NCBI GenBank assembly: GCA_951813575.1 | Contig: OX638375.1 | Span: forward strand, 1,527,001 to 1,591,000 | DNA: 64,000 bases | Reading direction: 5' to 3' | Source: Candidatus Binatia bacterium | GTDB taxonomy: Bacteria > Desulfobacterota > Binatia > UBA9968 > JAJDTQ01 | Part shown: positions 25,071-53,035 of the stretch, piece by piece | How positions within the stretch are numbered: the stretch's first letter is position 1 | How the letters are laid out: each line of letters begins with the position of its first letter | Translations under genes and position numbers: made by a program | Notes under the pieces: generated by a model | Database searches by the model: none | Told to the model about the DNA's origin: nothing | What the model saw: only the letters and a program-made list of their open reading frames with translations

Positions 25071-26294
25071 TCACGGCGCCGTTTCCGCCTGCAACACCCT
25101 GCCGCTACGTATGACATACACCGGCGCCCGGTGCTCGCGCAGGGCTTCCAGCACCGATGGGGCCTCCAGCACGACCATGTCCGCCGGGGCGCCCACCTCC
25201 AGGCCGAAGCCGTCGAGGCCCATGGCGCGGGCGGCGTCCACGGTGATCATGTCGTAGAGGCGCTCCATGTCTTCCTCGGTGGTCATCCACAGGAGGTGTG
25301 AGGCCAGGAACGCGACCTCCAGCATGTTGTTACGGCCGAAGGGGTAGTAGGCGTCGGAGATGTCGTCCTGCCCCAGGCAGACGCGGACGCCGGCAGCCAG
25401 GAGCTCGCGCACCCGGGCGTGGAGCGGGCCGGTGTGGGGATCGGTGACCACGGGCATGCCGGCCTGCCGCAAGAGCGCCGCCAGCTTCTGGAAATAGGGC
25501 TCGGGGTAGAGCGCCATGGCGCGGGCGTGATGGGCCAGGACCCGTCCCTGCCAGCCGGTCTCGATGGCGCTGACCGCCATCATCTCCAGGGTGCGGAGGC
25601 CGGGGTCGCCGGCGTCGTCCACCAGCATGGAAACCGGCCGGTCGTTGGCCACGGCGACCTCGAACATCTGGCGCACGTGCTCGCGGGCCGCGTCATCCGT
25701 GTACTCGATCCACGGGATGCCACCCACGACGTCCGCGCCCAGGGCCACCGCCTCCCGTACCAGGTCGGCCGCTCCGGGCTCGCGCACGACCCCGTCCTGG
25801 GGAAACGCCACGACCTGCAACTCCACCACGCCGCGGAATTCCTCCTTCAACAGGAGCAACGCCTTGACGCCCTCGAGACGCGCCTTGGTGTCCACGTCGG
25901 CAAATGCCCGGATGTGGGTGTTGCCGTGGACCGCGGCCGCGTGAAGCGCCCGCCTGGCATTCTCCACGATCCAGTCCTGGCTGTAGCCCTCCTTGACCCG
26001 CGACGCCGCCTCGATGGCCTTCATGGCGCTGCCCATGCCCTCGCCATGGTAGGCGCGCAGGGATGCCTCCTCGTCCAGGCGTTGCAGGGTGTAGACCTTG
26101 TCGAGGTGCAGGTGGGGGTTGACGAAGGGCTCGGTCACGAGGCCCCCGGCGGCATCCACGACCACCGCGGCCGCCGACTCCGCCGACTCCTCGATGGCCT
26201 CGATCCGTCCGCCGCGGACGGCGATGTCGTACAACGCGTCCGGCCTGCGCCGCAGCCGCGCCCTCCGGATCGAGAGATCGAATGATTCACTCAT
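25071..26294 (-). CDS. Cytosine-deaminase-like amidohydrolase with altered active-site residues
   Basis: This 407-residue TIM-barrel amidohydrolase aligns along its length with CodA/AtzC-type enzymes: N-P-H-L-H-L-D-K (H-x-H), V-A-F-P-Q-D-G, L-G-A-D-V-V-G-G-I-P, V-L-A-H-H-A-R-A-M (His) and L-G-Q-D-D-I-S-D-A-Y-Y-P (Asp). Where CodA has V-H-C-D-E with metal-ligand His214 and catalytic Glu217, this protein has M-L-V-D-D, so Leu224 and Asp227 occupy those places. It may therefore not be an ordinary deaminase. It diverges from fdrA with only 64 bases between the starts, so the two are probably co-regulated. GGGAG precedes the ATG. Confidence 0.82.
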   Translation of the reverse strand: MSESFDLSIRRARLRRRPDALYDIAVRGGRIEAIEESAESAAAVVVDAAGGLVTEPFVNPHLHLDKVYTLQRLDEEASLRAYHGEGMGSAMKAIEAASRVKEGYSQDWIVENARRALHAAAVHGNTHIRAFADVDTKARLEGVKALLLLKEEFRGVVELQVVAFPQDGVVREPGAADLVREAVALGADVVGGIPWIEYTDDAAREHVRQMFEVAVANDRPVSMLVDDAGDPGLRTLEMMAVSAIETGWQGRVLAHHARAMALYPEPYFQKLAALLRQAGMPVVTDPHTGPLHARVRELLAAGVRVCLGQDDISDAYYPFGRNNMLEVAFLASHLLWMTTEEDMERLYDMITVDAARAMGLDGFGLEVGAPADMVVLEAPSVLEALREHRAPVYVIRSGRVLQAETAP

Positions 26295-26358
26295 GGTTGC
26301 TCCCAGCGGCCTGGATTTAAGGGCGAGTTTCAGTGATATTCAACGAAAATCCAACCGA

Positions 26359-27915
26359 ATGGCCTCCATGATCACTCTCACCAAAGTCATCCGCAATTGC
26401 TATCGCGATTCCCTGTCGCTCATGCAGATGTCGGCCGGGTTGGCGGAGGCCTCGGGCGTGGACGCTTCGGCGGTGGTGATGGCCACCGACGGAAACCTGG
26501 GACTGTTGCGGGACGCCGGGCTGCTGACCGGGGATGCCGGCGCCGGCGCGTCCGACGTGCTCGTGGTCATCCGCGGCCAAGACACCCGCATCCTGGAGCA
26601 GGCCTTCGCCGAGATCGAGGAAGAACTGCACCGGGACCCGCCCGCGGCCCGGTCCGGCGGCAACGCGGCCGACATTCTGCCCCGCAGCCTGGCCATGAGC
26701 CTGCGGGACGCCGACCCCAACCTGGCGCTGATCTCGGTGCCGGGGGAATACGCGGCGGCCGAGGCGTTGAAGGCCTTGCGCCTGGGGCTCCACGTCATGC
26801 TGTTCAGCGCCGGCGTGTCCGAAGCCGACGAGGTCGCGCTCAAGCGCTACGCCGGCGCCAACGGCCTGCTGGTCATGGGTCCGGACTGCGGCACGGCCAT
26901 CATCAACGGCGTTCCGCTGGGTTTCGCCAACGTGGTGCGGCGCGGCGACATCGGCTGCGTCGGCGCCTCAGGCACCGGCCTCCAGGAAGTGACCACGCTC
27001 ATCCATCGACACGGCGCGGGCGTGTCCCAGGTCATCGGCACCGGCGGACGGGACCTCTCCCGCGCCGTCGGCGGCCGCTCGACCCTGCAGGCGCTGGACG
27101 CCCTGGCCCTGGACCCGGCGACGCGCGTCATCGTGCTGGTCTCCAAACCGCCGGAGCCGGAGGTGGCGGCCCGGGTCCTCGAGCGGGCCGGACGCGCCGG
27201 CAAACCCGTGGTGGTGCATTTCCTCGGCGCGGCTTCTGACACCGGACCTGGGTCGGGAATCGTTTCGGCGTGCACACTGGAGGAGGTGGCCGGCCGGGCC
27301 GCGGCCCTGTCCCGGGGAGTTCCGTTCTCGCCGGACGTCCCACCCGAAGGCACACCGGGGATGAGGCTGCCGGACACCGGCCCCCCAAGGGCGTCCGGCC
27401 AGCGGTTCATCCGCGGACTCTACAGCGGCGGCACGCTGGCCGCCGAGGCGGTGCTGCTCATGCGCGAGGCGGCGGGGCCGGTCTACAGCAATACTTCCCT
27501 GCCGCCCTCCCTGGATGATATCTGGAAGAGTCAAGGGCACAGCGTGGTGGACCTGGGCGATGCCCGGCTCACCCGCGGACGCCCGCATCCGATGATCGAT
27601 CCGCGGCTGCGGAACGAACGCATTCTGCTCGAAGCCGCCGACCCGGAGGTGGCGGTCATACTCCTCGACGCGGTGCTGGGTTACGGCGCCCACGGCGATC
27701 CCGCGGGCGCCCTGACTCCGGTCATCCGGGAAGCGCGGCAGACAACGGCGCGGGCCGGGAGACGGCTCTCGTTCGTCGCCTCCGTGTGTGGAACACCGGA
27801 GGACCCACAAAACGCGCCGCAGCAGGAACGCAGGCTGAAGGATGCAGGCGTGGTCCTGGCCCGCAGCAACGCGGAGGCCACCCGGATCGCGCTGGAGCTG
27901 GCGCGCGGCGAGTGA
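26359..27915 (+). CDS. fdrA: FdrA-type protein (acyl-CoA-synthetase-like; oxamate carbamoyltransferase subunit family)
   Basis: This 518-residue protein is related to the succinyl-CoA synthetase alpha/beta fold. Matches to FdrA include V-M-G-P-D-C-G-T-A-I-I-N-G-V-P-L, G-A-S-G-T-G-L-Q-E-V and G-G-R-D-L-S-x-A-V-G-G, the binding loops where succinyl-CoA synthetase has its phospho-His region. In E. coli the FdrA/YlbE/YlbF set (AllFGH) was reported to form an oxamate carbamoyltransferase making carbamoyl phosphate. Here it is followed by the DUF1116 partner and a ring-opening amidohydrolase, so its carbamoyl donor may be a ring-opened product instead. The frame is open far upstream, but similarity begins at this ATG, just beyond the divergent gene's start. 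Another ATG lies at 26368. Confidence 0.85.
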   Translation: MASMITLTKVIRNCYRDSLSLMQMSAGLAEASGVDASAVVMATDGNLGLLRDAGLLTGDAGAGASDVLVVIRGQDTRILEQAFAEIEEELHRDPPAARSGGNAADILPRSLAMSLRDADPNLALISVPGEYAAAEALKALRLGLHVMLFSAGVSEADEVALKRYAGANGLLVMGPDCGTAIINGVPLGFANVVRRGDIGCVGASGTGLQEVTTLIHRHGAGVSQVIGTGGRDLSRAVGGRSTLQALDALALDPATRVIVLVSKPPEPEVAARVLERAGRAGKPVVVHFLGAASDTGPGSGIVSACTLEEVAGRAAALSRGVPFSPDVPPEGTPGMRLPDTGPPRASGQRFIRGLYSGGTLAAEAVLLMREAAGPVYSNTSLPPSLDDIWKSQGHSVVDLGDARLTRGRPHPMIDPRLRNERILLEAADPEVAVILLDAVLGYGAHGDPAGALTPVIREARQTTARAGRRLSFVASVCGTPEDPQNAPQQERRLKDAGVVLARSNAEATRIALELARGE

Positions 27916-28023
27916 CACGAAAGGCATTGTCGTGTGTGATTCATCAGGTCCGGGGGCGCCGACGCCTCCAATACGTCATTCCCGCACAAGCAAAATGGCG
28001 ATACGGTTGGGTGCGGGGAAGGC

Positions 28024-29469
28024 ATGACCGAGCGTCTGTTCCGCGACGAGCTCCGTGTCGTCAACGTCGGCCTGGACGTCTTCGCGGACTCCATCGACGC
28101 CTCCGGCGGCGCCGTGCAACGGACCGACTGGCAGCCGCCCGCCGGCGGAGACAAACAGATCGGCGCGGCATTGGCCTCCCTCGTGAACCTTCCCGACGTG
28201 AAGCAGGCCAACGCGCGGGCGTTCGCCGCCTACCTGGACGCCCAGCCGGTGCTGGAGGGAATCGGTACGGCCAGGGACGACATCCCCGGGATGGGCGAGC
28301 GCATGATCCTCCACGCCGGTCCGCCGGTGGCGTGGGAGCGCATGTGCGGCCCCATGCAGGGCGCGGTGACCGGGGCGATCCTGCTCGAGGGCTGGGCGGA
28401 GGACCCGGAGGGCGCCCGGGCGCTGGCGGCGGGCGGCGGGTTCGTGTTCGAGCCGAACCACCACCACGCCTGCGTCGGCCCCATGGCCGGCGTCACCAGC
28501 CCGTCCATGCCGGTGTGGATCGTGCGCGATTCCGAGCACGGTCACACCACTTACTGCAACCTCAACGAGGGGCTGGGAAAGGTCCTGCGCATGGGCGCCT
28601 ATGATCCGGCCGTGCTGGAGCGGCTCCGGTGGATGGAGCGCGTGCTGGCGCCGACCCTGAAGACGGCGTTGGAGAAACGCGAGGAACTCCCGCTCAAGCC
28701 CCTGATGGCGCAGGCGCTGCACATGGGCGACGAGGTCCACAACCGTAACGTCGCGGCCTCTTCCCTGCTGCTGCGAGCGCTGCTTCCCGCTCTGCTGAAA
28801 ACCGGCGCGCCGCAGGCCCGCATCGCCGAGACCGTACGCTTCATCACCGGTAACGACCACTTCTTCCTCAACCTCTCCATGGCCGCCTGCAAGGCCATGC
28901 TGGACGCGGCCCACGGCGTCCCGGGCAGCAGCATGGTCACCGCCATGGCGCGCAACGGGGTGGAGTTCGGCATCCGGGTCAGCGGCACGGGAGACGCTTG
29001 GTTCACGACCCCGGCGCCGCGGGTCCAGGGGCTCTTCTTCACCGGATACAGCGTGGACGACGCAGCGCCCGACCTGGGCGACAGCGCCATCACGGAGACC
29101 GCCGGCATCGGCGGCTTCGCCATGGCCGCGTCCCCGGCCATCGTGAAGTTCGTCGGCGGGTCCGCCGCCGACGCCCTCGGCGCCACCGCCGAGATGAGGC
29201 ACATCACCCTGGGAAGCAACCCGGCGTGGACCCTGCCGGTCCTGGACTTCCAGGGCACGCCCGCCGGCATCGACGTACGCAAGTGCGTGGACACCGGCAT
29301 CGCGCCGGTCATCAACACCGGCATCGCCCACCGCGAAGCCGGCATCGGCCAGATCGGCGCGGGGGTCACCCGGGCGCCGCTGGCATGCATGGAGCAGGCG
29401 ATCACCGCATTGGCTCGCCAGCTTCGGGAAGACGGCCGGCTCACAACCCGACAAGGAGTCCTCTCATGA
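28024..29469 (+). CDS. DUF1116 protein (YlbE/AllG family)
   Basis: This 481-residue protein of the DUF1116 family is the usual partner of FdrA. Recognisable stretches are G-P-M-Q-G-A-V-T-G-A-I-L-L-E-G-W-A, F-E-P-N-H-H-H-A-C-V-G-P-M-A-G-V, A-L-H-M-G-D-E-V-H-N-R-N and F-F-L-N-L-S-M-A-A-C-K. In E. coli YlbE is reported as a subunit of oxamate carbamoyltransferase. A 108-base gap separates it from fdrA and holds only a scrap of an intergenic repeat. Its stop overlaps the ATG of the next gene by four bases (ATGA). The third E. coli component (DUF2877, YlbF) and carbamate kinase are not in this window. Confidence 0.85.
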   Translation: MTERLFRDELRVVNVGLDVFADSIDASGGAVQRTDWQPPAGGDKQIGAALASLVNLPDVKQANARAFAAYLDAQPVLEGIGTARDDIPGMGERMILHAGPPVAWERMCGPMQGAVTGAILLEGWAEDPEGARALAAGGGFVFEPNHHHACVGPMAGVTSPSMPVWIVRDSEHGHTTYCNLNEGLGKVLRMGAYDPAVLERLRWMERVLAPTLKTALEKREELPLKPLMAQALHMGDEVHNRNVAASSLLLRALLPALLKTGAPQARIAETVRFITGNDHFFLNLSMAACKAMLDAAHGVPGSSMVTAMARNGVEFGIRVSGTGDAWFTTPAPRVQGLFFTGYSVDDAAPDLGDSAITETAGIGGFAMAASPAIVKFVGGSAADALGATAEMRHITLGSNPAWTLPVLDFQGTPAGIDVRKCVDTGIAPVINTGIAHREAGIGQIGAGVTRAPLACMEQAITALARQLREDGRLTTRQGVLS

Positions 29470-30581
29470 AGGTAAGCGCATTCAAGGTGGGCATGGGCGC
29501 TCCCGACGACGTGTCGGAAGGGCGGAAGCTGCTGGAGGCCGGGGCGTTCAAGGCCGAGCACGTGGCGGCGATCCTGGGCAAGACCGAGGGTAACGGCGGG
29601 GTCAACGACTACACCCGGGCGCTGGCCACCCAGTGCTTTCAGTTGCTGATCGCGGAGAAGTCGGGGCTCACCATGGACGACATCGCGAGGAAGGTGCCGA
29701 TCATCTGGTCGGGCGGCACCGAGGGGCTGATGAGCCCCCACGCCACCATCTTCGTGAAGGACCCGGACGGCGGCGGCCACGGCCAGAAGGGCTCTAACGC
29801 GGGGGGCTTCACCGTGGGCACCGCCTACACCCGCGACATGACGCCCGAGGAGTTCGGCACCATGGCGCATGTGCAGTCCGCCGCCGAAGGCGTGAAGGCG
29901 GCCATCGAGGACGCCGGCATCGACGATCCCGCGGACATTCACTTCGTCCAGATCAAGACCGGCGCCCTGACCACCGAGCGGATCAAGGACGCCTACTCGC
30001 GCAACGCCCGGGTCGTCACCACCGACACCTACAAGTCCATGTCCTACGCCAGGAGCGTGGCCGCCCTGGGCATCGGCATGGCCACCGGCGAGATCGACGA
30101 GGGCAACGTCAGCGAAGCGGTCATCGGCCTGGACACGGCGATCTTCTCGAACGTGGCCTCGGCCTCTTCCGGCATCGAGCTGATGAACTGCGAGATCATC
30201 GTGCTCGGGAACTCCCCGCGCTCCGCCAGCGACCTCATCATCGACCACGCGGTGATGAAGGACGCCATCGACGCATCCGCGGTGCGGGAAGCGCTCCGAA
30301 AGGTGGGCCTCGAGGTCGACGGCGAACTGGCGGAACGCGACCAGGGCCGGCTGGTGAACATGTTCGTGAAGTGCGAGCCGGATCCATCCGGCAACACCCG
30401 CGGGCGGCGGCACGTCATGTTCGAGGACTCGGACATCAACTACACGCGGCACATCCGCGGCGCGGTCAACGCGGTGGTGGCCTCGGTGACCGGGGACACC
30501 ATGTGCTACATCTCCGCGGGCGCCGAGCACCAGGGGCCGGCCAGCGGCGGCGTGGTGGCCGCGCTGGCGCGCAAGGCCTGA
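29466..30581 (+). CDS. Ring-opening amidohydrolase (barbiturase / cyanuric acid hydrolase family)
   Basis: This 371-residue protein has the three-repeat fold unique to the AtzD/barbiturase family. Each repeat supplies a Lys, an Arg and a Ser: first I-L-G-K-T-E-G with Y-T-R-A-L and I-W-S-G-G-T-E-G; second V-Q-I-K-T-G with S-Y-A-R-S-V and A-S-A-S-S-G; third F-V-K-C-E with R-G-R-R-H and Y-I-S-A-G-A-E-H-Q-G-P. These match the three Lys-Ser dyads and Arg clamps around the ring substrate. Such enzymes hydrolyse barbiturate or cyanurate. I cannot tell which from the motifs. It is translationally coupled to the DUF1116 gene and is followed after 33 bases by the LVIVD gene. Confidence 0.88.
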   Translation: MKVSAFKVGMGAPDDVSEGRKLLEAGAFKAEHVAAILGKTEGNGGVNDYTRALATQCFQLLIAEKSGLTMDDIARKVPIIWSGGTEGLMSPHATIFVKDPDGGGHGQKGSNAGGFTVGTAYTRDMTPEEFGTMAHVQSAAEGVKAAIEDAGIDDPADIHFVQIKTGALTTERIKDAYSRNARVVTTDTYKSMSYARSVAALGIGMATGEIDEGNVSEAVIGLDTAIFSNVASASSGIELMNCEIIVLGNSPRSASDLIIDHAVMKDAIDASAVREALRKVGLEVDGELAERDQGRLVNMFVKCEPDPSGNTRGRRHVMFEDSDINYTRHIRGAVNAVVASVTGDTMCYISAGAEHQGPASGGVVAALARKA

Positions 30582-30614
30582 CGGCACACCGCTTCACCCT
30601 CACGGAGGATCGTC

Positions 30615-31751
30615 ATGACAGAACGCGAACCTTACGGCACCAGCAAAGGTTTCAGGCAATTGGGGCGCATCGACGTTCCCGGCGGCGGACAGGTGGTGGT
30701 GCAGGGAGACTACGCCTACGTCGGGCACCTGGAACCGCCCCACGGAACTTCCATCGTGGACATTTCCGATCCCGCGAACCTCAAGGTGGTATCACACATC
30801 GAGGTCCCCGAAAGCACCCACTCGCACAAGGTCCGGGTCCACGGCGACGTCATGCTGGTGAACAACGAACGCTACGGCGTGGCGAAGAACGGCTTCCAGG
30901 GCGGGCTCAAGATCTACGACGTGGCCGACAAGGCCCATCCCCGCGAGATCGGCTTCTACCGGGCCGCGGGCACCGGCGTCCACCGCTTCGATTTCGACGG
31001 CGACTACGTCTACTTCTCGCCGCAGGTGGAGGGCTACGTCGGCAACATCATGATGATCCTGGACCTGAAGGACCCGACCCGGCCCGAGGAGGTGTCGCGG
31101 TGGTGGATGCCCGGACAGTGGACCGCGGGCGGCGAAACCCCGACCTGGAAAGGCGTCCGGCACCGCTGCCACCACCCGCTCCGGCTCGGCGACCGTTTGT
31201 ACACCAGCTATTGGCACGGCGGCTTCGTCATCCTCGACATATCGGACATGGCCCGGCCGCGGAGCGTCGGCGGCCTCGACTGGAGCCCGCCCTACCCCTG
31301 CCCCACCCACACGGCGCTGCCGATTCCCCAGACCATCCAGGGGCGGAGACTGCTGGTGGTCACCGACGAGGAAGTGGTGGACCGGCTGACGCCGGCGCCC
31401 AACGCCTTCATGTGGATCGTCGACATCACCGAGGAGACCCGGCCCGTGCCCATCGCCACCTTCCGCGTGCCCAACGACGAGCCGTTCAATGTCGACGAAT
31501 GGTTCGGCTCCCATCAGCCGCAGGAACAGGTGGACGGCAACACCATCTTCGTCACCTGGTTCGCCGGCGGGCTCCGTGCCGTGGACATCAGCGATCCCTA
31601 TCGTCCCACCGAAATCGGCTACTACATGCCCGAACCCGGCCAGGGGGAGTCCATCGTCCAGAGCAACGACGTCTTCCTTGACCGCTCCAACGGCCGGTTG
31701 TACCTGTTGGACCGCCTGGCGGGGCTCGATGTCCTCGAGTTTACCGGCTAG
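30615..31751 (+). CDS. LVIVD-repeat beta-propeller protein
   Basis: This 378-residue protein is built of repeated four-stranded blades with the motif (I/L)-(V/Y)-D-(I/V)-(S/T)-D-P/x: S-I-V-D-I-S-D-P-A-N, K-I-Y-D-V-A-D-K-A, V-I-L-D-I-S-D-M-A-R, W-I-V-D-I-T-E-E-T and A-V-D-I-S-D-P-Y-R. No signal peptide is seen, so it would be cytoplasmic unless exported another way. LVIVD proteins have no firmly assigned catalytic role; some may bind ligands or act as lactonase-like propellers. Its place right behind the ring-opening hydrolase, with GGAGG before the ATG, argues for a part in the same pathway. Confidence 0.82.
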   Translation: MTEREPYGTSKGFRQLGRIDVPGGGQVVVQGDYAYVGHLEPPHGTSIVDISDPANLKVVSHIEVPESTHSHKVRVHGDVMLVNNERYGVAKNGFQGGLKIYDVADKAHPREIGFYRAAGTGVHRFDFDGDYVYFSPQVEGYVGNIMMILDLKDPTRPEEVSRWWMPGQWTAGGETPTWKGVRHRCHHPLRLGDRLYTSYWHGGFVILDISDMARPRSVGGLDWSPPYPCPTHTALPIPQTIQGRRLLVVTDEEVVDRLTPAPNAFMWIVDITEETRPVPIATFRVPNDEPFNVDEWFGSHQPQEQVDGNTIFVTWFAGGLRAVDISDPYRPTEIGYYMPEPGQGESIVQSNDVFLDRSNGRLYLLDRLAGLDVLEFTG

Positions 31752-31772: not shown

Positions 31773-31802
31773 TTGACAAGCTTTCCGCGTTGCGAGTAAC
31801 GT
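31773..31802 (+). promoter_or_regulatory. Putative sigma-70 promoter of the TRAP transporter genes
   Basis: TTGACA (31773-31778), an 18-base spacer and TAACGT (31797-31802) lie about 50 bases before the binding-protein start. The -35 is perfect and the -10 weak. Confidence 0.4.
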
Positions 31803-31849
31803 CGTGCGCTCTTACCGGATCTACCGGGATGCAGCGAGGAGGTATCGCC

Positions 31850-32829
31850 ATGAAACGTTCAAAGGTCTTCGTACCAGGATTGATCCTGGCCGTATTGCTG
31901 GGGTTCTCGGGCTGGAGTTCGGCCGTGGCCGAAACCATTACGTTGAAGCTGGCCACCTATGACCCGAAGACGGCGGTCACCGTTTCCGCGATACCCAAGC
32001 TCATCAAGCTGGTGGAGGAGAAGTCCAAGGGCAAGCTCAAGATCGACTGGATCGGGGGCCCGGAGATTACGCCCGGGCGGAAGCAACCCGCCGCGGTCCA
32101 AAGGGCGTGCTGGACATGAGCGTGGCCTGGGCCTACGTGCTTCATGTCAAGGCGGCTCAGGCGATGCATCTCTCCCGCCTCACCCCGCCCGAGGAGCGTA
32201 AGAGCGGGCTCTACGACCTGCTCGTCGAAGAGTTCGCCAAGGCCGGGTTCCGCTATCTCGGACGCACCACCACGGCAACCCCCTACGTGCTCGTTTCCAC
32301 CAAGAAGGCAGAGAAGCCCGAGGATATGAAGGGCCTGGGTTTCCGGACGTCCGGGATCTACGAGCCCATCATCGAGCGGGCCGGCGGCCGCAAGGTGCGG
32401 GTGGCCAGCCCCGAGGTCTATTCCGCCCTGCAGCGGGGCCTCATCGACGTCAGGCCGGCGCCCATGGGGACGGTGGTGGACGGGAAGCTCTACGAGGTCC
32501 TCAAATACTGGGTGGGGCCGGGCTTCTTCCCGGCGCAGAACACCGTGCTTTGCGTGAACCTCAAGAAGTTCAACAGCCTGCCCGCGGACCTCCAGAAGGT
32601 CTTGGTGGATGCCATGGCGGAGACCGAGAAGGGCCTCACGAGCCTCAAGACGAAAGAGTTCGACGCCGCCTGGCAGGTTGCCCAGAAGAACGGCATGGTG
32701 CGCAACGAATGGCCCAAGGACGTCACCGAGAGTTTCTACAACGACGTCATGAAGAAGTCCTGGGAACGGGTCGAGAAGGGGCTCGGCAAGGAGCTCATCG
32801 ACAAGATGCTGCCGTTGATGGGCGGATGA
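31850..32829 (+). pseudogene. TRAP transporter solute-binding protein (DctP family), single-base frameshift
   Basis: The gene starts with a good ribosome site (GAGGAGG) and a signal peptide ending near V-A-E, then T-L-K-L-A-T-Y-D-P-K-T-A. It runs in one frame to A-A-V-Q near 32101. DctP similarity continues (K-G-V-L-D-M-S-V-A-W-A-Y-V) one frame over, to 32829. The expected CAA-AAG codons read CCAAAGGG, so one A is missing in the run at 32100-32102. As written, the first frame stops after 90 codons from the ATG. The downstream part keeps family features, including F-R-T-S-G-I-Y and a ligand-binding Arg candidate in I-D-V-R-P-A-P. Either a recent mutation or a sequencing error explains it. It would be the receptor for the dctQM genes that follow. 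Confidence 0.8.
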
Positions 32830-35258: not shown

Positions 35259-35533
35259 CCAAGGTATCGGAGTTGCATCGGGAATGGAGCAAGGACCCGG
35301 AGTACCGGGAAGCCTATGATCGTCTTGAGCCGGAATTCGCGTTGTCGCGCATGCTGATCGAGGCCCGCACGCGTGCCGCACTGACGCAGGCGGAGTTGGC
35401 CGAACGCATGGAGACGACACAATCGGTCGTAGCCCGCCTGGAGAGCGGCCGCATCCATCCGTCCACACGGACACTGGAGAGGATCGCTCGCGCCACGGGG
35501 ACCAGGCTTCGGATCAGTTTCGATCCCGCGTGA
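35255..35533 (+). CDS. XRE-family antitoxin (HigA-like)
   Basis: This 92-residue DNA-binding protein has a helix-turn-helix (L-T-Q-A-E-L-A-E-R-M-E-T-T-Q-S-V-V-A-R-L-E-S-G) in its C-terminal half and a charged N-terminal helix. Its ATG overlaps the toxin's stop (ATGA), the toxin-first order typical of higBA. It would neutralise the RelE-like toxin and repress the pair's promoter. A longer frame from 35117 exists, but the overlap and family length favour this start. Its own stop overlaps the start of the following amidohydrolase. Confidence 0.82.
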   Translation: MTKVSELHREWSKDPEYREAYDRLEPEFALSRMLIEARTRAALTQAELAERMETTQSVVARLESGRIHPSTRTLERIARATGTRLRISFDPA

Positions 35534-36996
35534 TGCGCCTGGCTGCCCCCGACGCCAAGAGCATCCTGGCGGGAACGCTGCTCACGTCGGCTTCCGAGCC
35601 CGTGCTCAAGGACCGGCTCATCCGGATCCGCGGAGGGCTCATCGAGAGCGTCGAGCCCATGCCCGCCGCGCCACCGGAAGCCTCCAATGAGGCCCAGGTC
35701 ATCGACGCCCGCGACAAGGTCGTCATCCCCGGCCTGGTCAACGCCCATTGCCATCATACCGAGGCCTTCCAGCGGAGCCTCCGGGACCGGGTGCCCTTCG
35801 AGCTGTGGCTCCCGGAAAGACGTGCCATCGAGGACATCCTCGACCCCGGTTACGAGGACCTGCTGGCGGCCAACCACATCGCCCTGCTGGAGAACCTGAA
35901 GCACGGCACCACCACCGTGCTGCATCACCTCTCGCGGCGCGGCGCCATCGACCTGCAGGAGATCCGGGCGTGTATCGACGCCGCGGAACGGATCGGTCTC
36001 CGCACGTTCATCGCACCCTCGGTAGCCGACGCGGGCTGGCATCACGTAGTCCCGGCGCACGAGATGTCCGCCGCGGCCCGCGAAGAACTCGACCGTCTGG
36101 GCCAGGCCCTGGAGCTGGTCGCCGCCGGACCCGCCACCGTCAAGGGCGTGGTCGCGCCCAGCTCGCCGCACACCTGCACGGACGATTTCCTCAGCCGGTG
36201 CCTTGCCATGGCCGAGGAAAGAGATCTGCTCATGCACACCCATTTCCTCGAGACCCGGGCGGAAGCCATGCAGCGTACCGGCACCGGTGAAACGACCGTC
36301 GAACGGGCGGTACGGCTCGGTCTCCTCAGGTCCGACACCTCCCTGGCCCACGCCGTGCACCTCACCGACCGGGAGCTCGACGTCCTCAAGGAGAACCAGT
36401 CGGCGGTAGTGCACAACCCGTGCAGCAACGCCAAGCTGGGCAGCGGCCTCGCGCGCATCCGCGAGATGCTGGACCGCGGCATCACCGTGGCGCTAGGCTC
36501 GGACGGCGGAGACACGAGCGACGGCTACTCCATGTTCGACCAGATGAAGATGGCGGCCGTGATGCGGCGCTGCAGCGAACCCGACTTCAATACCTGGATC
36601 ACCGCAACGGAATGCCTGGCCATGGCCACCACCGGCGGCGCCCAGGCGCTCGGCCTCCGTGCCGGCAGGATCGCGCCGGGCCATCTCGCCGACATCTGCA
36701 TCCTGAAACCGGGCACGCGGATGTGGCCGGCCGCGGACCTTGCGCAGGCTCTCGTCTATTCGGAGAACGGCAGCAGCGTCGACACCATGCTCGTGGGAGG
36801 CGACGTCGTGTTGGAGAACGGCGAGAGCCCTCGCATCGACGAGGCGGCGTTGGGCCGTCAGGCCGGAGAACTGGCCGAAAGAGTCGAGCGGGCGAGAAGC
36901 GAAAGGGCTGCGCACAAACTCACGCCGGAGATCGCCGACCGCCTCCAGGCCGCGGAGCTTGAGTATCGCGAAGCCGCCTCAATGCCCAGGAAGTAA
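35533..36996 (+). CDS. Amidohydrolase of the AtzA/TrzN/guanine-deaminase type
   Basis: This 487-residue enzyme of the chlorohydrolase / ring-deaminase group has all mononuclear metal ligands: N-A-H-C-H-H (H-x-H), H-T-H-F-L-E-T (His and catalytic Glu), L-A-H-A-V-H-L (His) and A-L-G-S-D-G-G-D (Asp). An H-N-P-C-S-N-A-K-L-G loop typical of the group is also present. Members deaminate or dechlorinate purine, pyrimidine or s-triazine rings. With the ring-opening hydrolase 5 kb upstream, a preparatory step on an N-heterocycle is a natural guess. The start is either GTG at 35530 or ATG at 35533, both overlapping the antitoxin stop, so expression may be coupled to it. Confidence 0.85.
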   Translation: MRLAAPDAKSILAGTLLTSASEPVLKDRLIRIRGGLIESVEPMPAAPPEASNEAQVIDARDKVVIPGLVNAHCHHTEAFQRSLRDRVPFELWLPERRAIEDILDPGYEDLLAANHIALLENLKHGTTTVLHHLSRRGAIDLQEIRACIDAAERIGLRTFIAPSVADAGWHHVVPAHEMSAAAREELDRLGQALELVAAGPATVKGVVAPSSPHTCTDDFLSRCLAMAEERDLLMHTHFLETRAEAMQRTGTGETTVERAVRLGLLRSDTSLAHAVHLTDRELDVLKENQSAVVHNPCSNAKLGSGLARIREMLDRGITVALGSDGGDTSDGYSMFDQMKMAAVMRRCSEPDFNTWITATECLAMATTGGAQALGLRAGRIAPGHLADICILKPGTRMWPAADLAQALVYSENGSSVDTMLVGGDVVLENGESPRIDEAALGRQAGELAERVERARSERAAHKLTPEIADRLQAAELEYREAASMPRK

Positions 36997-37011
36997 GCAA
37001 ACGCGAGCACG

Positions 37012-38235
37012 TTACACCAGCCCGACCGGGACGGCATTGACAGACTCGTCCAAGGGGACCGGCTGATCACAGAGACACACGACCGCCCCTTCGCCCACCG
37101 GTATGTCCAGCCGCCGCAGAGCAGCGAAGGCCGGCAACCAGGATCTCCTGGGCGAAGCCGACTTCTTTATCTCGACCGGATAAAGGGTCCCATCGGCGAC
37201 GAACAGCAGGTCCACCTCCCTGCCGTCCTTGTCGCGGTAGTAATATAACTGCGGCCTTCTCCCCCTGTGCCACCAACTCTTCAGGACCTCGGCCACCACG
37301 TGGGTCTCGAACATGGCTCCCGACATGGCGCCGGCCTCCAGCGTCTCGGGGGAAGTCCACTCCGTCAGGTACGCGCACAAGCCGGTGTCGAGGAAGTACA
37401 GCTTCGGCCGTTTGACCAAACGTTTCGTGACGTTGGCATGATACGGCTGAAGCAGCTCGACCTGGAGGCTCGCCTGCAGGATCGAGAGCCAGTTCTTGGC
37501 GGTGTTGACGCTTACGTCGGCGTCGCGGGCCAGGTCGGACAGATTGAGCATCTGAGCGGTTCGCGCCGCGCATGCCTTCAGAAAGCGGAGGAATGCCATT
37601 TCATTGCCGACCTGTGACAGGGCGCGGAGGTCTCGTTCAAGGTACGTCTGCAAGTAGGAACTGTGGAACAACTCGCGGTCGTGGATCGGGCCGGCAACAA
37701 GTCCGGGAAATCCACCGGTCCAGATATCGCGGTACACCTCGTCGAGGCCGCTCACGCGAAGCGCCGGCTGGCGCTCGGCCAGAATGGGCAACGTCGGCAG
37801 AAAAGGAGACACGGCGGCATCGCGTTGATGTCGCTCGCGGGAGGAGAAGCCCAGCAGGTTGATGATCCCGACCCGCCCCGCCAAGGACTCGGAAACGCCC
37901 CTCATCGCCTGGAACTGTTGCGACCCCGTCAGCCAGAACAGCCCCGGCTGGCGGCTGTCGTCCACGATCACCTTGATCAGCGGCAACAGTCCGGGAGCAT
38001 GCTGAATTTCGTCGATGAGCACCGGCGGCTCGTACCGCTGCAAGAAGAGCGCGGGATCGTCATTCGCCAGATCGCGCAGCACCGGATTGTCGAGGGAAAC
38101 ATAACGACGAGCATCTTCCGCAAGGTGCCGCAGAAGGGTGGTCTTCCCGACTTGGCGTGGGCCGGTCAGCAGCAGCACGGGGAATTGCCGCGAAACCTCC
38201 AGCCAGTACGATTCGAGAGTGCGGGCGTAGTACAT
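37012..38235 (-). CDS. AAA+ ATPase with DUF4143 C-terminus (first of two)
   Basis: This 407-residue protein has Walker A L-L-T-G-P-R-Q-V-G-K-T-T, Walker B V-L-I-D-E-I-Q-H-A-P, sensor L-T-G-S-Q-Q-F and a C-terminal DUF4143 nuclease-like part with R-E-V-D-L-L-F and P-V-E-I-K. This family is common as solitary genes in environmental bacteria and archaea, and its role is not settled; links to DNA, mobile elements or toxin-antitoxin-like behaviour have been suggested. It lies convergent to the AtzA-like gene (15-base gap) and is related to the second copy at 49304-50560. The ATG has no clear ribosome site. Confidence 0.82.
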   Translation of the reverse strand: MYYARTLESYWLEVSRQFPVLLLTGPRQVGKTTLLRHLAEDARRYVSLDNPVLRDLANDDPALFLQRYEPPVLIDEIQHAPGLLPLIKVIVDDSRQPGLFWLTGSQQFQAMRGVSESLAGRVGIINLLGFSSRERHQRDAAVSPFLPTLPILAERQPALRVSGLDEVYRDIWTGGFPGLVAGPIHDRELFHSSYLQTYLERDLRALSQVGNEMAFLRFLKACAARTAQMLNLSDLARDADVSVNTAKNWLSILQASLQVELLQPYHANVTKRLVKRPKLYFLDTGLCAYLTEWTSPETLEAGAMSGAMFETHVVAEVLKSWWHRGRRPQLYYYRDKDGREVDLLFVADGTLYPVEIKKSASPRRSWLPAFAALRRLDIPVGEGAVVCLCDQPVPLDESVNAVPVGLV

Positions 38236-38359
38236 CGGCCAACTTGCAGTAATATCACAAATGGCCGGGTTTGCAGCGTCTAACGATTACGGAATCAGGC
38301 GGGCGGGTCGTCCTGCGGTCTGGTACCACTCACGGCTGAGGAAGTGCGCCCGCCTACTC

Positions 38360-40504
38360 CTACCCCGGCTGTGCCTCCGCGGCCGCGATCTCCGAATCGA
38401 GCAGCACGCCGCACCCGGGGCAGTACCAACGCTGGAACTCGTACTGGTCCAACAGCAGATCCATCAGGGGACCGGCCTCGGTGGGCGGAGCCGAACCCAG
38501 GGAGCAGGCTTCCCGCCAGTCGGCGTCGCTTTCGCACAGGATATGGTCGCACCGGGCGCATTGGACCCAGGTGTGTTCGCCGAGGTCACACAGAACGAGA
38601 GACTCCTGGAGAGGATGGCGGACGGCGCCCGTTCCCGTGCCGGGAGGCTCGGCAACGGCCGTGGCGCGGGTGACCGCCGCCTGCCGCTCACGCTTGAGGG
38701 ACTCGCGCTTCTCCCGGGTGCCGGCGCCGTCCACGCCATCAGTCCCGGCGAACACGACGCCGTAGATGGACTCCGCGGCTTCCCGCGACACAAGACCGTC
38801 CACCACGTCCTGGGCCACTCTCTCCGGGTCCCGCTCCAACGGATCGCCGTAGCCGCCGCCGTTGGCGCACCTGAGGTAGAGCAGATCGTCGACGCTCAGC
38901 CGCAGGTCGCGGTAGCCCAGCAGGTTGTGGGTGCCGCCGGCCTCTGCCAGCTCGTCCGGAAGGGTCTTGGCGGCCACGGCCTCGCGCACGTCGCTGTCCT
39001 CCACGTGCACCAGGATGCTGGGGGCGCCGGGGTGGCCGCCGTAGATGCCGAACCCCGAATTCCTCAGTCCGGCGACGCCCAGGGCGACGATCTGGATGTT
39101 CGCCTCCGGGGCGTCGTGGGGCATGATGAGGGATTCCTCGCCGGCGCCGCCGCGGAACTTGCCCGCGCCGGCGCCGTCCTGGAGATGGCGGCGGTAGAGG
39201 TAGAGCAGCGGGAAGTTGGCCTCCACCCACTCGACGTTGTGGACCGTGGAGGGCCGGCCCATCTCGATGCCGGCGGAGTTGATGCCGTCGCCCCAGGAAC
39301 GGGCGCCGATGCCGCCCAGGCCCACCAGCGTCGACACGTAGTAGCCGCCGGTCTGGTTCACCCCGGCGTGCCGCGCCAAACGGGTGCCCAGGGTCTGGGC
39401 GGTGACTTCCTTCGACCACTTCTCGCTGGTGCCGATCATCTGGATCAGCGTGCTGCCGGCCAGGAAACGGGCCACCGCCCCGCCGGAGGTGGTGTTGAGC
39501 GATACCGGCGCGGGATAAGTGGGGTTCACGATGGTGCCCTCGGGCGCCATCACCTCCATGACCCGGAACAGGCCGTGGTTCTTGGGCAGGTCGTAGCCCA
39601 GGGTCTGGAGCAACGACTCGAAGCAGGCGCCCACGGTGGCGTGATAGGGCAGGTTGATCCCCACCGGCGCCTGTTGGTCGGTGCCGGCAAAGTCGAAGGT
39701 CAGGAGGTCCCGCTCCTTCGTCAGCTCCACCTGCATCTTCCACAGCTTGTCGCCGGCCTCGATGTTGCCGTGGGCGCGCCAGACCCCGTCGGGCACCTCC
39801 AGGAGACGCTTCCGCAACAGGCTGGCGGTGTGGTCGAGCATCTCGCCGGTGACCTTCTCCATGAGCTCGACGCCGTAGTGCCGGTACAGCTCCTGCATCC
39901 TGGCCCGGCCGACGTTGTTGGCGGCGATCTCGCACTTGAAATCCAGCCCCACCATGACCGGCTGGCGGGTCATGTTGGTGATGGTGTCGAACACGTCCCG
40001 GCGGATCTTGCCGCGCTCGATGAGCTTGATGCCGGGGATGCGGATGCCCTCGTGGCAGATCTCGGTGGCCCCCGGCGAGTTCCCGCCCGGGGACATGGCG
40101 CCGACGTCCGCCACGTGCACGAACGTGGCGCTCCAGCCGATCAGGCGCTCGTCCACGTGGATCGGCGAGACCACGTACATGTCCGGCTGGTGAATTGCCG
40201 CCAGGTAGGGGTCGTTGATCAGGAACATGTCGCCGGGGAAGATCCCACCCTCGTCGGTGAAGCGCTCGATGATACGGCGCACCGCCACGCCGGCGCAGCC
40301 CACGTGCCAAGCCATGGCGTCGCCGGCGCACAGCACGTCGCCGTTGGGCTGGTAGAGGCCCGCCAGGTAGTCCCGCATCTGGGTCGTGTTGACGGTGCCG
40401 CCGACCCGCTCCAGGGTGGTGCCGATCTCCTGGGTGATCTGATAGAGCCGGTGCGAGAGGATCTCGAAGGTCACCGGATCGACCGACAGCTTGGGTTCAG
40501 ACAT
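38360..40504 (-). CDS. hyuB: Hydantoinase B / oxoprolinase B subunit with C-terminal zinc-ribbon-like tail
   Basis: This 714-residue protein has the HyuB core in the first 560 residues or so: D-P-V-T-F-E-I-L-S-H-R-L, F-L-I-N-D-P-Y-L-A-A-I-H-Q-P-D, W-S-A-T-F-V-H-V-A-D-V-G and N-T-T-S-G-G. With HyuA it would hydrolyse a cyclic amide at the cost of ATP. The last 120 residues add two Cys pairs (C-A-R-C-D-H and Y-C-P-G-C-G-V-L-L-D) with an acidic ending. That tail resembles the small gamma subunit of acetone/acetophenone-type carboxylases, which share the HyuA/B fold. The complex could thus be a carboxylase rather than a hydantoinase. The ATG at 40504 was chosen for GGAGCC upstream and the family N-terminus. 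It follows hyuA. Confidence 0.86.
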   Translation of the reverse strand: MSEPKLSVDPVTFEILSHRLYQITQEIGTTLERVGGTVNTTQMRDYLAGLYQPNGDVLCAGDAMAWHVGCAGVAVRRIIERFTDEGGIFPGDMFLINDPYLAAIHQPDMYVVSPIHVDERLIGWSATFVHVADVGAMSPGGNSPGATEICHEGIRIPGIKLIERGKIRRDVFDTITNMTRQPVMVGLDFKCEIAANNVGRARMQELYRHYGVELMEKVTGEMLDHTASLLRKRLLEVPDGVWRAHGNIEAGDKLWKMQVELTKERDLLTFDFAGTDQQAPVGINLPYHATVGACFESLLQTLGYDLPKNHGLFRVMEVMAPEGTIVNPTYPAPVSLNTTSGGAVARFLAGSTLIQMIGTSEKWSKEVTAQTLGTRLARHAGVNQTGGYYVSTLVGLGGIGARSWGDGINSAGIEMGRPSTVHNVEWVEANFPLLYLYRRHLQDGAGAGKFRGGAGEESLIMPHDAPEANIQIVALGVAGLRNSGFGIYGGHPGAPSILVHVEDSDVREAVAAKTLPDELAEAGGTHNLLGYRDLRLSVDDLLYLRCANGGGYGDPLERDPERVAQDVVDGLVSREAAESIYGVVFAGTDGVDGAGTREKRESLKRERQAAVTRATAVAEPPGTGTGAVRHPLQESLVLCDLGEHTWVQCARCDHILCESDADWREACSLGSAPPTEAGPLMDLLLDQYEFQRWYCPGCGVLLDSEIAAAEAQPG

Positions 40505-40557
40505 GGAAGGCTCCTTGTTCACGGTCCAGCGCGGGCAGGCTATGGTGCATCCCCCCT

Positions 40558-40579
40558 GGGGCGACCGCCGGTCGCCCCT
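40558..40579. repeat. 22-bp palindromic repeat, copy 2 (identical to 11643-11664)
   Basis: This is the same 22 bases with 9-base arms and a GCC centre as at 11643. It lies in the 131-base gap between hyuA and hyuB, where it would form a hairpin in the shared transcript, about 55 bases before the hyuB start. Confidence 0.7.
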
Positions 40580-40635
40580 ACAGTCGATTAACCGGACGGG
40601 CTCCCATGGCGCTGCGCCATACACTGCGCCGGCCG

Positions 40636-42738
40636 TCAGGCCTGTACGTGCATCCTGATATTCCGGTACTCGTCCATCTCCGCGGCATCGCCCGGCCCCA
40701 CGACGATGGTGGTCACCGGGCTCTCGACGATACAGGGCCCCTGGATTGCCATTCCCGGCACGAGCCGGTCGAAATCGTAGATGTCGGCGGGCAGGAAATC
40801 CCGTTCCTGCTCGAAGTAGGCGTCTCGCTTGCCCTTCCGGGCATCCGCGGGATCCGCGGGCCCCCTGGCATGACGCTTGATGTTGGGATGCTGGATCTTG
40901 CCCACCGCGCGGAGCCGGAAGGTGATGATCTCCTTGCCCGCCTCCCGGTAGCCCGATCCCGGACCGTAGGACTGCTCGTAGAGCTCGTCGAAAGCCTGGT
41001 CGAGCCACCGGAAGTCCTCCATGCCCAGCTCGGCGGTGCCCTGCGGCAACTCGGCGTTGAGCTCGTGGCACTGGAAGCGGTAGCGCATGTCCAGGCTGCG
41101 GATGACGGCGATCTCCTCGCCCGCGAACCCCATCTTCTCCAGGTCCGCGCGGGCCTTGTCCAGGAGCCCCGCGAAGGTCGCGTTGACGACCTTGGGGTCG
41201 GGCGGATACACCAGCCGCTCCGCCTTGCCGTACTCGAACACCACGTCGGAGGCCAGCAGGCCCAGGCCGCCGTGGACCGAGGAGGTCATGGGCACCACCA
41301 CCTCCTTGATCCCCAGCTCCGCGGCGTACCGGCCGCAATGCACCGGACCGGCCCCGCCTTCCACGAACAGCACGAAGCTCCGGGGATCATGGCCGCGCTC
41401 CACCGTCGCCCGCCGGATCAGGTCCGCCATCTGCGCGTTGGTGATGCGGTAGAGTCCGCTGGCCGCCTCGGTCAGGCTCATTCCCAGGGGGTCCGCAACC
41501 TTCTCCTGGATCGCCCGCACCGCCGCCTCCCGGTCCAGCCGCATGCGCCCGCCCAGGAAATAATCCGGGTTCAGGTACCCCAGCACCAGGTCGACGTCCG
41601 ACACGGTGGGCTCGGTGCCGCCGAGACCGTAGCTCGCCGGCCCGGGCTTGGCGCCCGCCCCCTGGGGCCCGATCTTCAGCAGCCCCTTCTCCTCGTCCAC
41701 CCAGCCGATGCTGCCGCCGCCGGCGCCGATGGACTCCACCCAGATCTTGGTGGCCAGCACGGCGTGACGCAGGATCACCGGGCTGTAGTTCTTCTCGATG
41801 CGGCCGTCCCGCACCAGGCCCACCTTGAATGTGGTGCCGCCCATGTCGGTGACCAGAATGTTGGGTTCGTCGATCTTGTCGCAGAAATACTGGCCGCCCA
41901 CCACGCCCGCCGCCGGACCCGACTCCACCAGGCCCACGCCGCGCCGCACGCAGGCGTCGCTGTCCAGCACGCCGCCGTAGGCCTGCATGATCAGTGGCGC
42001 GTTGGGCAGTCCCTTGGCCGCCAGGGACCCGCCCAGATCGGCGAGGTACGACGAGATGGTGGGGCCGATGTAGGCGTTGAAGATGGTGGTAATGGTGCGT
42101 TCGTACTCGCCCAGGTAGGGCGCCACCTCCGACGACAGGCTCACGAACAGGTCCGGATGGCGCGACTTGATGAGCTCCTCCAGGGCCCTTTCGTGGCTGT
42201 CGTTGGCGATGGACCACAGCAGCGAGACGGCCACCGCGGTGACGCCCTCGGCCACCAGCCGGTCCACCACGGCCGCGGCCTCGTCGAGGTCCAGCTCCAC
42301 TACCACCGCGCCCTTGTAGTCCACGCGCTCCTTCACCTCTCCGATCAGGCTCCGCGGCACCAGCGGGTCGGGTTTGGTCAGGGCGTAGAAGTGGGCGGTC
42401 TCGGCCTCGGTGAGCCCCTCGGTCATCCGCCCCCGCATCATGTAGATGCTGTCGGCGAAGCCCTTGGTGGTGATGAGCCCGGTCCGGGCTCCCGAGCGGG
42501 TGAGCAGCGTGTTGTCCCCCACCGTGCAGCCGTGGAAGAACAGCTTGGCGGCGTGCAACAGCGCCTCTTCGCCGGTCATGCCCAGGTGCTCCGCCGCATT
42601 GCGCACCGCGTTGAGGACGCCCATGGCGAAATTGTCCGGCGTGGACAACGCCTTGCCCACGGTGAGCTCACCGGCTTCGTCCACCACCACGCAGTCGGTG
42701 AACGTGCCGCCGATATCCACCCCCAGGTTGTACTCCAT
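40636..42738 (-). CDS. hyuA: Hydantoinase A / oxoprolinase A subunit
   Basis: This 700-residue ATP-using subunit belongs to the hydantoinase / acetone-carboxylase superfamily. It has the actin-like ATPase signatures V-D-I-G-G-T-F-T-D-C near the N-terminus and V-T-D-M-G-G-T-T-F-K-V in the middle. Also present are G-A-G-G-G-S-I-G-W and F-V-E-G-G-A-G-P-V-H, which bind phosphate and substrate. It forms a complex with HyuB encoded next. GGAG lies six bases before the ATG. It is the third gene of the leftward amidase - carbon-nitrogen hydrolase - hyuA - hyuB unit. Substrates could be hydantoins, 5-oxoproline analogues or a carboxylation acceptor. Confidence 0.88.
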   Translation of the reverse strand: MEYNLGVDIGGTFTDCVVVDEAGELTVGKALSTPDNFAMGVLNAVRNAAEHLGMTGEEALLHAAKLFFHGCTVGDNTLLTRSGARTGLITTKGFADSIYMMRGRMTEGLTEAETAHFYALTKPDPLVPRSLIGEVKERVDYKGAVVVELDLDEAAAVVDRLVAEGVTAVAVSLLWSIANDSHERALEELIKSRHPDLFVSLSSEVAPYLGEYERTITTIFNAYIGPTISSYLADLGGSLAAKGLPNAPLIMQAYGGVLDSDACVRRGVGLVESGPAAGVVGGQYFCDKIDEPNILVTDMGGTTFKVGLVRDGRIEKNYSPVILRHAVLATKIWVESIGAGGGSIGWVDEEKGLLKIGPQGAGAKPGPASYGLGGTEPTVSDVDLVLGYLNPDYFLGGRMRLDREAAVRAIQEKVADPLGMSLTEAASGLYRITNAQMADLIRRATVERGHDPRSFVLFVEGGAGPVHCGRYAAELGIKEVVVPMTSSVHGGLGLLASDVVFEYGKAERLVYPPDPKVVNATFAGLLDKARADLEKMGFAGEEIAVIRSLDMRYRFQCHELNAELPQGTAELGMEDFRWLDQAFDELYEQSYGPGSGYREAGKEIITFRLRAVGKIQHPNIKRHARGPADPADARKGKRDAYFEQERDFLPADIYDFDRLVPGMAIQGPCIVESPVTTIVVGPGDAAEMDEYRNIRMHVQA

Positions 42739-42804
42739 ATGGTTCTCCGTGACGTATGGAACGGGACCTCTGTGGGCGACAGGCTCGCGCCCCGGGCCGC
42801 CCGC

Positions 42805-43647: not shown

Positions 43648-43649
43648 GG

Positions 43650-45116: not shown

Positions 45117-45340
45117 CCCGGTCACTCCATCGGCCGTTACGGGCCCTGACACGGCCACTAGTGCCTATACGCGCGGGGCTGGGCAAAAAGCAAGCTCACG
45201 CCGGGGTCCACCGGCGGCACTCCCATTGTTGACACTCCGCCGTCCTCTCTGACAGAGTCGGCGGGGCAGCGCGGGCGTCCGCCGGACGCTGGGACGGGCA
45301 AGCCGATGCGCCGAGGGCATCGAACGGGAGCATACAGTCC
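45117..45340. promoter_or_regulatory. Divergent control region between the amidase and TAXI operons
   Basis: The 224 bases hold two small hairpins (CCGCCG...CGGCGG around 45237-45264, and GCGTCC-GCC-GGACGC at 45275-45289) and a TTGACA at 45229 with no convincing -10. Both operons must start here, but I cannot place their promoters. Confidence 0.4.
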
Positions 45341-46327: not shown

Positions 46328-46375
46328 GTCGATTCCGCTGCCAGCCCTCCTCCTTGAACCGGAAAGGAGTTTCCG

Positions 46376-47845: not shown

Positions 47846-47863
47846 ACGCCGGAGTGTCAGCCG

Positions 47864-50561: not shown

Positions 50562-50652
50562 AGTATACCGTGTATTTGTCTCCTGTAAAGGCGTGAGATT
50601 GTACGGTTAGAATGCGTGGAATTGTACGTTCCAGGTACGCATGATGGTACGG
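50562..50652 (-). promoter_or_regulatory. ATPase promoter with upstream direct repeats
   Basis: On the minus strand TTTACA (50589-50584), a 16-base spacer and TATACT (50567-50562) form a good promoter ending one base before the first ATG. Upstream lie 18-base imperfect direct repeats, GCGTGAGATTGTACGGTT (50591-50608) and GCGTGGAATTGTACGTTC (50614-50631), 23 bases apart, plus a partial third, GCATGATGGTACGG (50639-50652). They look like tandem operator sites. Confidence 0.5.
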
Positions 50653-50727
50653 AGCGGGCTGGAGACCCCATACCCCTGGTTGACCACTCCCCCGCATGCG
50701 CTGTACGGTGCCCACGGAGCAAAGCAT

Positions 50728-53025: not shown

Positions 53026-53035
53026 GGGATCGACC

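Follow-up and report, generated by a model that had tools for sequence, protein, structure and literature searches.

A recurrent operon of Candidatus Binatia links AllF and AllG to an AtzD/barbiturase-family hydrolase: a possible carbamoyl-transfer branch for ring-opened ureides

The region described here is a window of 64,000 nucleotides (bases 1527001-1591000) from the genome of a Candidatus Binatia bacterium, which is assembled as one contig of 4.21 Mb and is 98.1% complete. Two predicted carbamoyltransferase subunits and a ring-opening amidohydrolase are encoded there by consecutive genes on the + strand. The first gene, fdrA (allF; 26359-27915), starts with the ATG at 26359 or alternatively at 26368 and encodes a protein of 518 aa that matches NCBIfam NF004760 and the Pfam domains Ligase_CoA and CoA_binding. 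It is followed by allG (DUF1116; 28024-29469, 481 aa), by a gene of the AtzD/barbiturase family (29466-30581, 371 aa) and by a gene for an LVIVD-repeat protein (30615-31751, PF08309). The stop codon of allG and the start codon of atzD share the bases ATGA, and packing is looser between fdrA and allG, where the gap is 108 bases. The initial annotation had described this arrangement, and both the coordinates and the profile matches bear it out. Upstream, on the - strand, lies a gene for a cytosine deaminase/AtzC-like amidohydrolase (25071-26294, Pfam Amidohydro_3), whose best PDB sequence matches are AtzC (5akq, 8.7e-56) and cytosine deaminase (4r7w, 1.3e-55). The divergent intergenic region of 64 bases between this gene and fdrA (26295-26358) is probably a promoter region; a promoter scan of it revealed no sigma-70-like site.

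The E. coli AllFGH proteins are a proven oxalurate/oxamate carbamoyltransferase, whose activity requires AllF, AllG and AllH, all three (PMC11326118). Both of the corresponding proteins encoded in the window are full length, with an identity to E. coli of about 41% for AllF and 51% for AllG. The FdrA protein reaches 493 bits against NF004760 (cut-off 433) and AllG 337 bits against PF06545, as expected of the AllF and AllG subunits of oxamic transcarbamylase. FdrA is related to the alpha chains of succinyl-CoA synthetase. Solved relatives are present in the PDB for AllF (3dmy, FdrA), for AllG (3clq) and also for the AtzD-family protein. Residues 7-53 of AllG (window 28024-28190) match the C-terminal positions 508-554 of the E. 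coli FdrA model, and the allF/allG gene boundary, as judged from sequence, is shifted by about 47 residues relative to E. coli. The boundary of the window type is common to most relatives, E. coli being the exception.

The linkage of AtzD to AllF and AllG is recurrent. A scan for relatives of AtzD, with one genome per species, yielded 17 loci from Binatia, Rokubacteria, an alphaproteobacterium and Acholeplasmataceae, and the nearest relatives as judged by the AtzD locus are metagenome-assembled genomes of Candidatus Binatia. FdrA and/or AllG stands beside AtzD in 15 of them, and the other two are contigs that end at AtzD. This is more than chance would give, AtzD having been found in 1 of the 297 genomes of a phylum sample. 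The gene set spans at least five phyla-level groups (Binatia, Rokubacteria, Acholeplasmataceae, Pseudomonadota and Actinomycetota) and at least six gene orders, the arrangement varying in nearly every group. The distribution of AtzD and of AllG is patchy, which could speak for an adjacency by chance, the outcome that the initial annotation had named as fatal to its idea. The survey rules this out: with 15 of 17 loci, five phyla, many gene orders and the conflicting trees described below, its probability is negligible.

The clusters of other bacteria show a fuller gene set. The Citrobacter plasmid pE51_002 carries a DcuC-like permease, AtzD, a nucleobase symporter, AllH, FdrA, AllG, carbamate kinase and LysR, and the K. 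pneumoniae plasmid pHS08204 has the same set plus atzF across an IS26. The plasmids of K. quasipneumoniae and Aminobacter sp. SR38 have the order FdrA-AllG-AtzD-carbamate kinase-cytosine-deaminase-like-ABC transporter-AllH. On an Embleya megaplasmid, AllG, FdrA, AllH, PucR, a Xan/Ura permease, CoxM/S/L-type molybdenum (Mo)-hydroxylase genes, a CN-hydrolase, AtzD and carbamate kinase are located within 22 kb, and four loci of Rokubacteria carry a Mo-hydroxylase large subunit beside FdrA-AllG-AtzD. AtzD, AllF, AllG, AllH and carbamate kinase thus co-occur in Citrobacter, Klebsiella, Aminobacter, Acholeplasmataceae and Embleya. The initial annotation had supposed that the hydrolase substitutes for DUF2877 (AllH) and carbamate kinase; most clusters carry AtzD and AllH together, and this replacement had to be given up, while the three genes stand as a recurrent functional unit on the evidence of the survey and the trees. 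AtzE was not seen in the clusters with AllFG, and AtzD genes without AllFG sit with AtzG/E/H/F or with isochorismatase-family hydrolases; AllFG thus looks like a different way of continuing the route downstream of AtzD. The module also occurs without AtzD: Photobacterium and ColV plasmids encode a biuret-hydrolase-like protein, AllH, FdrA, AllG, carbamate kinase and a free allophanate-hydrolase C-terminal domain. The ColV-type cluster of E. coli pAPEC-O2-ColV (L031:5809-11771) has a cytosine permease as well, and its biuret-hydrolase-like, AllH and FdrA genes were each matched in two pieces and look broken. The atrazine plasmids pADP-1 (L070:6220-8704) and pSR8 (L068:30066-34146) have a truncated allG, arcC (carbamate kinase) and atzC in this order, with the allG remnant immediately ahead of arcC, so atzC was probably recruited from an operon of the allF-allG-arcC type.

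Phylogenetic trees indicate that the pair did not come together in a single event. In the AtzD tree, Binatia and Rokubacteria form a group (100/99). In the AllG tree, Binatia are placed with the alphaproteobacterium, Citrobacter, Photobacterium and the ColV plasmid (100/100), apart from Rokubacteria. An AllG clade of Binatia and Rokubacteria was rejected by the approximately unbiased test (p-AU 0.000175), as was an AtzD clade of Binatia, the alphaproteobacterium and Citrobacter (p-AU 2e-43). Since the AtzD and AllG trees conflict, the pair was assembled more than once, independently. This repeated assembly is the strongest evidence in the analysis that AtzD and AllFG work together.

In some clusters the ring substrate of the AtzD-family enzyme is known or strongly implied. 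The AtzD of the Klebsiella and Aminobacter fdrA-allG-atzD-arcC operons (L030, L049) is TrzD (PDB 5t13) in 370 of 370 residues, a cyanuric acid hydrolase that has been characterised from Acidovorax citrulli (PMC5366886). Aminobacter (Chelatobacter) SR38 degrades atrazine, and its trzD is maintained when the medium contains cyanuric acid (PMC6892810). The AtzD of Embleya has 75% identity to the barbiturase 5hwe, carries the signature N-H-K-V-A and adjoins carbamate kinase, with AllF, AllG, AllH, the Mo-hydroxylase set, the permease and PucR at no more than 20 kb from it. AllFGH modules are therefore linked to both a cyanurate opener and a barbiturase. The products of these openers, carboxybiuret and ureidomalonate, are both N-acylureas shaped like oxalurate, on which AllFGH is proven to act. 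A study of nitrifiers described allFGHK beside trtA/biuH/atzF and, on comammox contigs, allFGHK present where the carboxybiuret decarboxylase gene trtB is missing; its authors read allFGH as serving oxalurate degradation (PMC12625717). A literature search found no paper that joins AtzD or barbiturase with FdrA/DUF1116 as a pathway, and the combination is new in the searchable literature.

AllF-AllG might instead be an enzyme of oxalurate and oxamate only, these being the sole tested substrates of AllFGH (PMC11326118), and the AtzD homologue might open another ring, such as parabanate to oxalurate, or serve a neighbouring pathway. The active-site residues of the window clade, which are of a type of their own, would accord with this. 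However, neither TrzD nor barbiturase, both linked to AllFG, yields oxalurate, and we consider the explanation very unlikely.

The genes that are missing from the source genome narrow the choices, within the limits of an assembly that is 98% complete. A whole-genome profile search for AllH (DUF2877, PF11392), the third subunit of oxamic transcarbamylase, gave no match, and the E. coli positive control was matched. Genome-wide, the best scores were 21.7 bits for carbamate kinase (cut-off 358), 97 bits for biuret hydrolase (BiuH; cut-off 370) and 25 bits for urease alpha (cut-off 680), and for allophanate hydrolase (AtzF) nothing exceeded the cut-off and no match to its C-terminal domain was listed. 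The absence of DUF2877 and carbamate kinase, which had been annotated initially, thus holds for the whole genome, which has one copy each of AllG and AtzD. With AtzF, BiuH and urease missing, AllF-AllG is left as the obvious next step after ring opening.

AllH is also absent genome-wide from Binatia, from three of the four Rokubacteria and from one alphaproteobacterium, all of which appear to run AllF-AllG alone. A lone AllH-like gene is found in Rokubacteria (L055, genome G299), distant from the AtzD-AllFG locus and with no AllF or AllG near it. The lack of AllH, which E. coli needs (PMC11326118), and the kinship of FdrA to succinyl-CoA synthetase alpha chains could also mean that AllF-AllG has another activity here, for example an acyl-CoA ligase-like one on the acid released after ring opening. 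This is unlikely in our judgement: AllF and AllG are full length and 41-51% identical to the E. coli proteins, and the pairing with AtzD elsewhere includes AllH and carbamate kinase, which points to carbamoyl phosphate.

The AtzD-family protein of the window is 52% identical to the cyanuric acid hydrolase of Moorella, 49% to TrzD and 44% to barbiturase 5hwe. Its match to PF09663 (448 bits) and its three aligned Ser-Lys pairs assign it to the Toblerone fold; the aligned catalytic residues are the Lys of GKTEGN, the Ser of SGGTEG, the Lys of VQIK, Ser233, Lys296 and Ser344. Groups of the family are defined by five published specificity positions (PMC3758960), at which cyanuric acid hydrolases have R-T-R-G-G (R195, T321, R325, G345, G346) and barbiturases N-H-K-V-S/A (N195, H321, K325, V345, S/A346). 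The window protein has neither set: it carries R-T-R-A-G, with A at position 345, a set shared by Binatia and Rokubacteria that corresponds to none of six published groups. Its loop SAGAEHQGPASGGV has three mismatches to the cyanuric acid hydrolase motif SGGxExQGPxGGGP (PMC9118981). The NCBIfam model NF052395, 'cyanuric acid amidohydrolase', is exceeded by the window protein (462 bits, cut-off 360) and by the Embleya barbiturase as well (486). The model mislabels barbiturases and does not discriminate, and its name was dropped for the window protein.

Barbiturate arises in the oxidative pyrimidine route from the oxidation of uracil, a step expected of a Mo-hydroxylase. In the AtzD tree, the clade of Binatia and Rokubacteria appears as sister to the barbiturases (99/97) and outside the cyanuric acid hydrolase clade, in a placement where two long branches meet, and it shares with the barbiturases the motifs GNGGVNDY, WSGGT and KCE. 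Because of this placement, the shared motifs and the Rokubacterial Mo-hydroxylase neighbour, we lean towards barbiturate or a close relative as the ring, with cyanurate as the main rival. The source genome has 54 matches to the Mo-hydroxylase large subunit in 4.2 Mb, a striking expansion. One of the Mo-hydroxylases, in the window at 50641-53920, was dropped as an operon partner, being only 31% identical to the Rokubacterial one.

Taken together, the operon may serve as a short branch that conserves energy from the N-acylurea formed when a ring is opened. The AtzC/cytosine-deaminase-like enzyme would deaminate an aminated ring and is the probable maker of the ring substrate; its gene is retained in other Binatia, where the neighbours in loci L003 and L009 are 87-91% identical. 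The AtzD-family enzyme would then use its Ser-Lys pairs to cleave an amide bond of the cyclic ureide, a six-membered ring. AllF-AllG, whose E. coli homologues are two subunits of the three-subunit oxamic transcarbamylase, would move the terminal carbamoyl group to phosphate; the products would be carbamoyl phosphate plus an amide, either malonamate or allophanate. For the source genome we favour barbiturate as the ring and ureidomalonate as the opened product, which would be split into carbamoyl phosphate and malonamate. Since no carbamate kinase was found, carbamoyl phosphate would be spent on making pyrimidines and arginine. The core idea of the initial annotation, a predicted phosphate-dependent cleavage of the opened ring that yields carbamoyl phosphate, is well supported by context and is the simplest reading. 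Gene content, linkage, the conserved catalytic residues and the absences at the profile cut-offs were observed, whereas the reactions are all predicted; that AllF-AllG acts on the ring-opened product, whatever the ring, is moderately probable, and the whole pathway with barbiturate favoured is the best explanation at a little better than even chances, while barbiturate specifically as the ring is a tentative choice, short of even.

Several points weigh against this pathway. The weakest step is AllF-AllG without AllH, since E. coli needs all three proteins. The AllF tree alone keeps a clade of Binatia and Rokubacteria unrejected (p-AU 0.124). The long branches joined in the sister placement with barbiturases were flagged by the tree program. 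No Mo-hydroxylase adjoins the operon in Binatia, and none of the Binatia Mo-hydroxylases could be assigned as uracil dehydrogenase, as dozens of paralogues have similar identity. The active site is of the cyanurate type at four of the five positions (R195, T321, R325, G346) and departs only at A345, so barbiturate specificity is not secure.

These four residues favour the main rival, in which the ring is cyanuric acid: AtzD would form 1-carboxybiuret, from which AllF-AllG and phosphate would give carbamoyl phosphate and allophanate before carboxybiuret decays, and the AtzC-like gene would supply cyanurate from ammelide-type rings. TrzD itself is encoded in such an operon, atzF is in or beside enterobacterial clusters, and the AtzC family is linked to AllFG operons, down to the allG remnant before arcC-atzC on the atrazine plasmids. 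An enzyme of strain ADP genuinely uses carboxybiuret as its substrate (PMC6219798), and the comammox contigs without trtB but with allFGHK (PMC12625717) are in line with this. Nevertheless, the window AtzD lies outside the cyanuric acid hydrolase clade, the published motif is broken at three positions, and the source genome has neither an allophanate hydrolase over the cut-off nor urease; cyanuric acid as the ring is on balance improbable, if a serious candidate.

More broadly, AllF-AllG may be a general N-acylurea phosphorylase module behind varied openers, among them barbiturase, cyanuric acid hydrolase, triuret/biuret hydrolases and allantoin enzymes, and would release the carbamoyl group as carbamoyl phosphate in place of urea or ammonia. 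Binatia and Rokubacteria would have the two-subunit form without AllH, supplied by an AtzD clade whose ring specificity would be new. We regard this generalisation as possible, at not quite even chances.

Among the neighbouring genes, the LVIVD gene stands beside AtzD in five Binatia loci (L003, L004, L005, L009, L016) with 88-99% identity, was not seen adjoining AtzD outside Binatia among the surveyed loci, and has a paralogue of 61% elsewhere in the source genome (G000:2609081). Downstream of it, a gene for a TRAP solute-binding protein (window 31790-32829) is missing the opening third of its profile in frame and is preceded by a short open reading frame in another frame; it is possibly broken or mis-sequenced. 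The region 35530-49291 of the window is rich in amidohydrolases and also encodes a hydantoinase/oxoprolinase, an AtzE/GatA-like amidase, a dihydropyrimidinase-like enzyme and a UbiD-type decarboxylase. An AtzD of 'Group IV' (T345, R346) was noted on the Acidithiobacillus caldus megaplasmid (L051:1845-12235), with xanthine-dehydrogenase-type subunits, ureidoglycolate lyase, XdhC, AtzE, HpxZ and gamma-glutamyltransferase as neighbours, which gives a context for the substrate of this group.

To our knowledge, pyrimidine and s-triazine catabolism has been described as purely hydrolytic once the ring is open, the nitrogen of the ureide being given off as urea or ammonia; in the classical oxidative pyrimidine pathway the last enzyme is a ureidomalonase, with urea as a product. 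If the proposed route is true, part of the energy of the ring ureide is saved as carbamoyl phosphate (ATP through carbamate kinase), and the next step is supplied for TrzD and for the actinobacterial barbiturase. It would also explain the position of atzC behind arcC and an allG remnant on atrazine plasmids, as well as the replacement of carboxybiuret decarboxylase by allFGHK in comammox Nitrospira, and the two-subunit AllF-AllG systems offer a route to asking what AllH does.

The E. coli AllFGH and AllK system (EC 2.1.3.5, allantoin degradation; PMC11326118) resembles the window in the order of AllF and AllG and in the predicted phosphorolysis of an N-acylurea. In contrast to E. coli, the window has no AllH and no carbamate kinase, a ring-opening hydrolase is part of the operon and the gene boundary is displaced; the proposed ureidomalonate reaction would involve a substrate longer by exactly one CH2 than the known conversion of oxalurate to carbamoyl phosphate and oxamate. 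The operons of Aminobacter sp. SR38 pSR8 and K. quasipneumoniae pKqs_SB610_3 have the identical FdrA-AllG-AtzD order and an AtzC/cytosine-deaminase-like gene nearby, but unlike the window they encode carbamate kinase, AllH, an ABC transporter, atzF (Klebsiella) and the cyanurate-specific TrzD. Barbiturase 5hwe is related to the window AtzD by a probable sister-clade position and by shared motifs, whereas its specificity residues are N-H-K-V-S/A and not R-T-R-A-G. Ring opening by an AtzD-family enzyme is common to the window and to the AtzDGEHF (strain ADP) or AtzD-BiuH-AtzF (Rhizobium) pathways; the source genome, however, has no BiuH or AtzF, and no AtzE follows AtzD in the operon, where AllF-AllG stands in their place.

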